A DNA stretch of 64,000 nucleotides, taken from Thermococcus sp. Lineage in GTDB: Archaea; Methanobacteriota_B; Thermococci; Thermococcales; Thermococcaceae. The notes under the pieces were generated by a model. The model was given only the letters and a program-made list of their open reading frames with translations. It was not told where the DNA came from and searched no databases. The DNA is taken from contig NZ_JALSLB010000054.1 in assembly GCF_026988555.1 (NCBI RefSeq), positions 62,001 through 126,000 of the forward strand. The letters run 5' to 3'. Positions within the stretch are counted from its first letter, which is position 1; each line of letters begins with the position of its first letter. Shown here one piece after another: positions 4,722 through 55,740 of the stretch. The translations under genes and the position numbers were made by a program.

Positions 4722-4738
4722 AACTAAAGGTTTATAAC
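4722..4738 (-). promoter_or_regulatory. SurR recognition site overlapping the pdo TATA box
   Basis: Read on the minus strand the sequence is GTTATAAACCTTTAGTT, an exact match to the extended SurR motif GTT-n3-AAC-n5-GTT. The first half (TTATAAA, 4731-4737) is also the probable TATA box of pdo, so bound SurR would compete with TBP. This is the geometry expected for repression of pdo when sulfur is absent. The motif is established knowledge from Pyrococcus; the regulatory outcome is inference. Confidence 0.8.
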
Positions 4739-4778: not shown

Positions 4779-4795
4779 GTTTGCAACCTAAGGTT
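4779..4795 (+). promoter_or_regulatory. SurR recognition site upstream of the surR promoter
   Basis: GTTTGCAACCTAAGGTT matches the extended SurR motif GTT-n3-AAC-n5-GTT exactly. It lies just upstream of the surR TATA box (TATATAAG, 4806-4813), a position suited to activation or autoregulation rather than to blocking TBP. Together with the site at 4722-4738 it gives the divergent pdo/surR intergenic region two sites 57 bases apart, start to start. Confidence 0.8.
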
Positions 4796-4844
4796 AAATG
4801 TTCACTATATAAGCTTTACGTCACAGATATGGGTGGTGTGGGTC

Positions 4845-5549
4845 ATGACTGAACCGGATATATTTTACATCTTGGGGAACAAAGTGAGGCGCGATCTTCT
4901 CAGCCACCTCACCTGTACGGAGTGCTACTTCAGCTTCCTCAGCAGCAAGGTCAGCGTTTCTTCAACGGCTGTGGCCAAGCACCTTAAAATCATGGAACGA
5001 CAAGGAATCCTGAAGTCTCACGAGAAGGAGGGACCATTTATCGGACCCGCGAGGAAGTACTACGACATTGCCATATCAAGAACCTACGTTGCCACGGTTA
5101 CCCCGAACGTATTCTGGTACCACGGCTTGGACTTAAAAGACCCAAACGAGGGCACCTTCAACATCGAAGTGAGTCTGCCCGAAACCAAAGACTCCGACCT
5201 CACTGAGCTGGTGACCCAGTTCCTGCGCCTCAACAGGGAGCTCAACAAGGTTCTCCAGGCCCTGGGATCCGTGGAACATGGCCGTGATGTTCTTATGAGC
5301 CGGATAAAAGAACGTTATCTCCGCGAGATAGGTGACATGACCCAGCTGGCCATCCTCCATTATCTGCTCATCGAGGGCACCGCAACCGTTGATGAACTCA
5401 GTGACAGACTCAACTTAAAGGAGAGGGAGGTCGTGGCCAAAGCAGAGGAACTGGGCAGATTTATACCGTTAAGGATAAAAGATGGCGTTATCGAGATTGA
5501 TTCAGAAAGGCTTCAGTCAGAGGGTGAAGGTGATGGTAGAGAAGATTAG
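4845..5549 (+). CDS. surR: Sulfur response transcriptional regulator SurR
   Basis: ArsR-family DNA-binding protein that switches Thermococcales between hydrogen-producing and sulfur-reducing metabolism. The N-terminal winged helix (residues 1-70, with SSTAVAKHLKIMERQGIL as the recognition region) contains the redox switch CTEC at residues 24-27; oxidation of this CxxC by sulfur abolishes DNA binding in the Pyrococcus protein. A second helix-turn-helix-like region sits near the C-terminus (GDMTQLAILHYLL, DELSDRLNLKEREV). The ATG at MTEPDIF is chosen because GGTGGTGTGG precedes it. The gene is divergent from pdo and overlaps the downstream ferredoxin by 17 bases, suggesting one transcript for surR, the ferredoxin and the geranylgeranyl reductase. 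Confidence 0.95.
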   Translation: MTEPDIFYILGNKVRRDLLSHLTCTECYFSFLSSKVSVSSTAVAKHLKIMERQGILKSHEKEGPFIGPARKYYDIAISRTYVATVTPNVFWYHGLDLKDPNEGTFNIEVSLPETKDSDLTELVTQFLRLNRELNKVLQALGSVEHGRDVLMSRIKERYLREIGDMTQLAILHYLLIEGTATVDELSDRLNLKEREVVAKAEELGRFIPLRIKDGVIEIDSERLQSEGEGDGRED

Positions 5550-31538: not shown

Positions 31539-31695
31539 GTTTCCGGAAAAACCCCAGGTTTAGAACTTTTGGTTAAGGTGCCGGCGCCAAAAATGTCCCC
31601 CTTTGCAGAAAAGAGTGCGTTAGAGCCAACGAATGGTCAAGTATGCCCCGCGGAGTTTCACGGGAAAGGGCGTCAAAGGGGAAAAAGACACCGGT

Positions 31696-54290: not shown

Positions 54291-54740
54291 TCAGAGGGTC
54301 TCGAATTTAATCGTGTCAGTAACAAACGTTATGTCAAGGCAGTCTATCGCGTGCACTTTCTTAGTTATCTCAGAGAGTATTCTATCCATCTCCTTCATGT
54401 CCTTTGGACCCGCCACGTGGAGGATGAGGTTGTGTGACCCTATCGCCTTCTGGATCACCTTCACGTTCTCGTTTTCTTTCAGCACCTCGATGACACTATC
54501 TACATCCGTGCCGGGCTTTAGTGTTATGCCCAGGAGGGCGTACATGTACCCCAGGGAATCATAATCGGGGATAACGGTGTACTTCTTGATGATACCGTTC
54601 CTCTCGAGCCGGTCCATCCTGCGGGAGACCCTCTGCCTGGTAGTGTCAAGAAGCTCGGCCAGATCCTTATAGGTAAGCCTAGCGTTCTTTGCCAAGAGCT
54701 TCAAAATCCTGATATCGATGCCGGTTATTTTATCGGCCAT
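54291..54740 (-). CDS. Lrp/AsnC-family transcriptional regulator with upstream SurR-like site
   Basis: A 149-residue regulator with N-terminal helix-turn-helix (GIDIRILKLLAKNARLTYKDLAELL, TTRQRVSRRMDRLERNGII) and a C-terminal RAM domain (MYALLGITLKPGTDVDSV, IGSHNLILHVAGP). The ATG at MADKITGID follows GAGGTGGGTGAG. The TATA box TTTTATATAG is at about 54792-54783, and an exact extended SurR motif lies some 40 bases further upstream (54828-54844), suggesting activation by SurR. The target genes are unknown. Confidence 0.9.
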   Translation of the reverse strand: MADKITGIDIRILKLLAKNARLTYKDLAELLDTTRQRVSRRMDRLERNGIIKKYTVIPDYDSLGYMYALLGITLKPGTDVDSVIEVLKENENVKVIQKAIGSHNLILHVAGPKDMKEMDRILSEITKKVHAIDCLDITFVTDTIKFETL

Positions 54741-54827
54741 CTCACCCACCTCGACCATCTTTAGTTTTCAATAATGCCGGAGCTATATAAAAGTTTTTCC
54801 GTTATCTTGTAAACTTTTCAACAACTT

Positions 54828-54844
54828 AACCTTTAGTTCACAAC
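54828..54844 (-). promoter_or_regulatory. Extended SurR motif upstream of the Lrp-family gene
   Basis: On the minus strand the sequence GTTGTGAACTAAAGGTT fits GTT-n3-AAC-n5-GTT exactly. It lies about 40 bases upstream of the TATA box of the Lrp gene (starting 54740), the geometry of an activator site. The gap between this gene and mazG holds no other promoter facing it. The motif is established for SurR in Pyrococcus; binding here is inferred. Confidence 0.65.
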
Positions 54845-54938
54845 TTTTAATAAAATGCAACGTATCCCCTGACAGGAGCATGACATTACGTCACTATTTA
54901 GGACCTTGAAACGGGGGAAAGGGGGGCCAAATGTTACT

Positions 54939-55229
54939 TTAAGTTCCATTTCTCATATCCCGCCGCCTGTACTTCTCAATGCTCTCTCCAAGGGCCTCTT
55001 CCAGGTCAATCCCGTAGTGGTTGGCTATGCAGGAGAGGGCGAACATAACGTCACCCACCTCTTCCCGAAGCCTCACCAAATCCCCACCACTTTTTACGCC
55101 CTCCACCTTTAGCATCTCATCCGCCAGTTCTCCAACCTCCTCAACAAGCGCAGCTATCATCTTAAATGGTGTCCAGTACCCACCCAGTTCCTGGATCAGC
55201 TCATCAACCTTGACCTGCTCATTTTTCAT
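54939..55229 (-). CDS. MazG-like nucleotide pyrophosphohydrolase
   Basis: A 96-residue all-helical enzyme predicted to hydrolyse (d)NTPs to monophosphates, a house-cleaning role. The metal-binding pattern EExxE with a second ExxD is visible in VEEVGELADEM (residues near 28-39) and LREEVGDVMFAL. GAGGGTGCCGTT precedes the ATG. It lies 10 bases downstream of the ArsR gene and probably shares its transcript. Confidence 0.9.
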   Translation of the reverse strand: MKNEQVKVDELIQELGGYWTPFKMIAALVEEVGELADEMLKVEGVKSGGDLVRLREEVGDVMFALSCIANHYGIDLEEALGESIEKYRRRDMRNGT

Positions 55230-55239
55230 AACGGCACCC

Positions 55240-55617
55240 TCAAACGATCTCGGTCGTTATTCGTTCAAGATAGTTCTTGATGGCCTCGGAGTTCGTTCTG
55301 TAAAAACGCATTTTTCCCTCTCTCCTCTCCTCCAGCAGCCCTGACTCCTTCAAAACACGCAGATGGTGGCTTATGAGAGTCTGGTCTTTTTCAAGTATCT
55401 GCGATATAAGACAGACGCACAGCCATGTGTCCTTAAGAAGCTTGAGCATCTGGAGGCGTGTAGGGTTTGAAACGGCCTTCAGGAAAGTAAGGGCATTGGG
55501 ATTGACGTTGGGGTCTACCTCAGTGTCGAGGTCAAGGATATCGCATGATTCTGCACAGCGAAGCACGGTGCTCTTCTGACCGGCACTCAGTTTCTCAACG
55601 ACTTCCGCAAGTCTCAT
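55240..55617 (-). CDS. ArsR-family metal- or thiol-sensing regulator
   Basis: A 125-residue winged-helix regulator with the classical ArsR core: NPTRLQMLKLLKDTWLCVCLISQIL, DQTLISHHLRVLKESGLLEERREG. The CVC in the third helix matches the ELCVCDL metal site, and another pair, CAESCDIL, occurs in the N-terminal extension, so the protein may sense a soft metal or thiol oxidation. The ATG at MRLAEVVEK follows GGTGAGGAAG, with a TATA-like CTTAAAG upstream. Followed by mazG. Confidence 0.9.
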   Translation of the reverse strand: MRLAEVVEKLSAGQKSTVLRCAESCDILDLDTEVDPNVNPNALTFLKAVSNPTRLQMLKLLKDTWLCVCLISQILEKDQTLISHHLRVLKESGLLEERREGKMRFYRTNSEAIKNYLERITTEIV

Positions 55618-55740
55618 CTTCCTCACCGTAACCAGTTAGTCCTCAAACCTTTAAGAATTTTTGCTCACATGAAAATAATTAGGGAGTACGGGACGATCAA
55701 CATCTCGCTCTTTCAGGCCTCACCTTGTGGTGTGAGAGGA

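Follow-up and report, generated by a model that had tools for sequence, protein, structure and literature searches.

The window, a 64-kb stretch of Thermococcus sp. DNA, includes a gene for an Lrp/AsnC-family regulator, designated lrp here, and, upstream on the same strand, a MazG-like gene (54939–55229) that ends ~95 nt from a candidate SurR operator (Table 1). As the two genes are co-oriented, the only possible target of this site other than lrp is a transcript that is not annotated. The gene for the presumed binder, surR, is also found in the window, and the CxxC motif of its product is CTEC, within the N-terminal wHTH. Two genes upstream of lrp, 55240–55626 encodes a regulator of the ArsR/SmtB type that contains a CVC motif and scores above the cut-off of NCBIfam HTH_metalloreg.

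Table 1. Features of the lrp locus and of the control sites in the window
Feature	Coordinates	Strand	Remarks
lrp, Lrp/AsnC-family regulator, 149 aa	54291..54740	-	Pfam HTH_24, HTH_AsnC-type; nearest solved structure PH0061 (2dbb)
BRE/TATA of lrp, GGAAAAAC-TTTTATATA	54784..54800	-	aligns with cGAAACATTTTTATA of orthologs
15-bp near-perfect palindrome TTGAAAAGTTTACAA, probable Lrp autoregulatory operator	54807..54821	.	ortholog counterpart TTGGAAATnnTCCAA
SurR-type operator, candidate, GTTGTGAACTAAAGGTT	54828..54844	-	104 to 88 nt upstream of lrp start
surR, CxxC winged-helix regulator, presumed binder	4833..5549	+	Pfam PF0095-like_C; start probably ATG 4845
SurR site, divergent pdo/surR promoter (positive control)	4722..4738	-	exact match
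SurR site upstream of surR (positive control)	4779..4795	+	kept in 25/25 relatives examined
Overlapping SurR site pair (AACn5GTTn3AACn5GTT), positive control	31550..31574	.	upstream of MnhE-led (mbs/mbh-type) cluster

The HTH_24 and HTH_AsnC-type domains were found in Lrp above the Pfam cut-off and AsnC_trans_reg below it (E 3.6e-4), and the protein thus has the AsnC-type HTH and C-terminal RAM-like domain of the Lrp/AsnC family. A phmmer match to PH0061 (PDB 2dbb; E 3.6e-37) covered residues 4–148, and this nearest archaeal Lrp/AsnC (feast/famine) regulator is of the same length and has the same domain order. Lrp differs from such regulators in the sub-cut-off score of its ligand-binding domain. 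As this domain scores below cut-off, no NCBIfam equivalog cut-off is reached and PH0061 is itself only a 'putative' regulator, a role in amino acid metabolism is an assumption. No paper tying PH0061/PF0054 to SurR was found.

The candidate site, GTTGTGAACTAAAGGTT, reads GTT GTG AAC TAAAG GTT on the minus strand and matches GTTn3AACn5GTT exactly, bearing out a preliminary description of this DNA that had placed an exact motif before an Lrp-family gene. The likely lrp start is the ATG at 54740, which is preceded by GAGGTGGG, and an in-frame ATG at 54758 is a possible alternative. The TATA box TTTTATATA was located at 54784–54792 and the BRE GGAAAAAC at 54793–54800; the SurR-type site is therefore upstream of BRE/TATA, the position expected for activation, as had been described, but 35 nt and not ~40 nt from TATA. 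The corresponding gap is 9–10 nt at surR and ~27 nt at the MnhE-led promoter in locus L205, all gaps being read by eye from the sequence; a TATA scorer trained on lrp orthologs was biased and was not relied on for these gaps.

The palindrome TTGAAAAGTTTACAA lies 6 nt (54822–54827) from the SurR-type site and is the sole match in the genome to the pattern TTGNAAANTTTNCAA. In the orthologous loci (L036–L123) BRE/TATA is shared and a palindrome, for example TTGGAAACATTCCAA or TTGGAAATnnTCCAA, is found ~30 nt upstream in many; another genus of the family has a similar one (L117, L120). We infer that the palindrome is probably the operator of Lrp itself, which would be a likeness to archaeal Lrp/AsnC regulators, with an autoregulatory element beside the regulator's own promoter. 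However, it is located upstream of the BRE, whereas the operator of Pyrococcus furiosus LrpA overlaps the transcription start (PMC6316755). A separate conserved ATAACCTAATG block adjoins the palindrome in many Thermococcus orthologs, giving AACCnnnnGGTT.

About half a match to the long motif had been predicted by chance for the window. The expectation was indeed low (0.33 in shuffled sequence), and five exact matches were observed, a number reached in no shuffle. The other four are located at pdo/surR (two) and at the Mrp-antiporter-led (mbs/mbh-type) promoter (two). The genome-wide census was made by pattern searches with reversed-pattern and altered-spacer controls, and identified 38 exact matches compared with 8 for the reversed pattern, 31 for GTTn3AACn6GTT and 19 for GTTn4AACn5GTT. 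When one simple ORF-based rule was applied alike to motif and controls, 21 of the 38 true matches were intergenic, compared with 5 of the 30 classified matches to GTTn3AACn6GTT and 2 of the 19 to GTTn4AACn5GTT. From these control counts, ~10–25% of the intergenic exact matches may be due to chance.

The eight unconstrained positions of the lrp site scored 4.2 bits in a leave-one-out analysis, the site itself being excluded from training, and this score is reached by 1.3% of random sequences, while most intragenic matches score below zero. The match of the lrp site to the SurR motif of this genome is thus good at more than its nine fixed bases. Nearly all of the 21 intergenic matches are at promoters of hydrogen/sulfur (H2/S0) genes, namely those for formate dehydrogenase, an F420-hydrogenase-like subunit, an iron alcohol dehydrogenase (Fe-ADH), Nfn/sulfide-dehydrogenase-like proteins, sulfhydrogenase 2 beta, a CoA-disulfide-reductase-like protein (nsr type), hypF, hypA, hydrogenase-4 subunit D, two MnhE-led clusters, pdo, surR and CbiM. 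The outliers are lrp and a phosphopantothenate-synthetase-type gene of CoA biosynthesis, which has an exact SurR-type site 94 nt before it (L200:1501–1517; G000:C61:3256–3272). This second site is of interest as NSR, a SurR-controlled sulfur reductase, is described as CoA-dependent.

Three matches classified as intragenic (L023, L004 and L201) score level with promoter sites, and may reflect misplaced gene starts or internal promoters. Overlapping pairs of the long motif were found at four promoters (31550–31574; G000:C16:9530–9554; C30:10726–10750; C65:29883–29907), with one GTTn3AAC in common to form a symmetric AACn5GTTn3AACn5GTT unit, and the asymmetric 17-mer may be half of a full SurR site.

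With the Lrp protein as the query, a contig scan recovered only three loci, and a family search found an ortholog in 91 of 94 genomes. Among the 89 orthologous lrp promoters with at least 200 nt of upstream sequence, the long motif was present in two, those of this genome and of its nearest relative, G064, in which Lrp is 99% identical; the promoter in the named record L001 is the same as that of G064. In the next closest lineage, identity of Lrp is down to ~72%. A 26-base search over the family agreed with this restriction. The motif was absent from the other 87 promoters, and only 3 of these had the short core within 250 nt upstream. In contrast, all 25 surR promoters tested have kept the long motif, with little variation in its position, 5 of the 30 loci having been left out as they were not placeable by start pattern. 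A degenerate SurR site in the lrp orthologs was also considered and rejected, as the best scores were barely above those of shuffles (8/9 in 11 promoters versus 5.6 expected, a count drawn from related and hence non-independent species), and the AACCnnnnGGTT sequence common to orthologs has the wrong spacing for such a site.

Conservation at orthologous promoters had been put forward as the check on the site, and on this point (2/89 for lrp against 25/25 for surR) the idea of a SurR-Lrp cascade general to the Thermococcales is unsupported, while a version restricted to one clade could still hold. Conservation is a supporting criterion for SurR targets and not a strictly defining one, and a lineage-specific target need not satisfy it.

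All 17 bases of the site are identical in the nearest relative. Relative to L001, the proximal promoter (54741–54869) has 1 change in 129 nt and the distal intergenic part ~12 changes in 69 nt, and 110 of 511 fourfold-degenerate sites differ when lrp and the neighbouring genes are pooled. This low proximal divergence suggests constraint on the lrp promoter. However, no change is seen in the initial 92 nt of lrp coding sequence either, and part of the proximal footprint could be a low-divergence tract reaching into lrp. A comparison of SurR-site conservation between this genome and G064 is biased, the G064 loci having been fetched for the presence of the motif. The surR gene was not found in the assembly of the nearest relative, which is 75% complete.

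The divergence pattern bears on the possibility that AT-rich intergenic sequence spelled the motif by chance and that the relative kept it only through low promoter divergence, which is low on either side of the lrp start. The 87 lrp promoters that do not carry the motif and the two and five intergenic matches still given by the altered-spacer patterns are also what such a chance origin would predict. However, it would not account for the agreement of the eight unconstrained positions with the SurR preference of this genome, for the placement of the site close upstream of BRE/TATA, or for the association of almost every other intergenic match with an H2/S0 gene, and we consider a chance match unlikely, though to be taken seriously. 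The lrp site is probably a real SurR operator, as judged from these sequence features, and we have reasonable confidence that SurR binds there.

What bound SurR would do is less certain. SurR activates from positions upstream of TATA and represses from positions downstream, and its binding is abolished when sulfur oxidises its CxxC motif (PMC12162507). The first rule predicts that reduced SurR makes lrp more highly expressed when sulfur is absent, and activation rather than repression is the outcome that we lean towards. Two points tell against it: the BRE/TATA of lrp itself looks strong, so that an activator may not be needed, and the gap to TATA exceeds that at surR, though it is near that in L205. 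Bound SurR might instead have little effect on lrp, or hinder Lrp autorepression through antagonism at the palindrome, without recruiting the transcription machinery. The 6-nt separation of site and palindrome and the apparent strength of the unaided core promoter would suit this alternative, which we regard as improbable, as binding of both SurR and Lrp is a prediction only, and a position upstream of TATA is usually an activating one in the literature (PMC12162507). The ortholog sequence AACCnnnnGGTT, formed with the ATAACCTAATG block, slightly resembles AACTAAAGGTT here, which would suit an element of another regulator, for example a second Lrp dimer site that extends the operator upstream of the palindrome and is only SurR-like. 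We regard this as very improbable, since AACCnnnnGGTT has n6 and not n5 spacing, the n6 form is unenriched at promoters of this genome, and the ortholog block is 8–9 nt closer to TATA.

On balance, a genuine, recently acquired and clade-restricted SurR operator, from which reduced SurR raises lrp expression in the absence of sulfur, is the reading that we favour by a modest degree. Without elemental sulfur, reduced SurR would bind 35 bp upstream of TATA and increase lrp transcription. With sulfur, oxidation of the CxxC motif would release SurR from the lrp promoter, and lrp would then return to the level set by Lrp via the palindrome, which is flanked by the SurR site on one side and by the BRE on the other. 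Control of Lrp regulators by SurR is an idea already known in general, as growth of Thermococcus onnurineus on sulfur lowers at least three Lrp/AsnC regulators, which the authors drew under SurR (PMC4463584). More tentatively, SurR may have captured an otherwise conserved Lrp-type regulator in one lineage, so that sensing of elemental sulfur would feed into the Lrp regulon in a cascade of two tiers, SurR and Lrp acting at neighbouring operators only 6 nt apart.

The locus resembles the SurR regulon of the Thermococcales, as described for P. furiosus (PF0095; GTTn3AAC and GTTn3AACn5GTT), in several respects: the long motif is exact and precedes BRE/TATA, SurR is encoded in the genome, and the H2/S0 genes expected to carry the motif do so. 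It differs in that the target is a regulator gene and not a hydrogen or sulfur enzyme, that the site is kept in one close relative only, and that the gap to TATA is 35 nt. If the favoured reading is true, the lrp promoter would be one defined case of a second regulator coming under the control of a sulfur sensor, and the SurR regulon would have been rewired quickly between closely related Thermococcus species. It would also call for caution in carrying SurR targets over from one species to another on the motif alone, since genome-wide lists of SurR sites, such as the 170 promoters listed for T. piezophilus (PMC8595942), probably combine sites that are conserved with others that are lineage-specific or due to chance.
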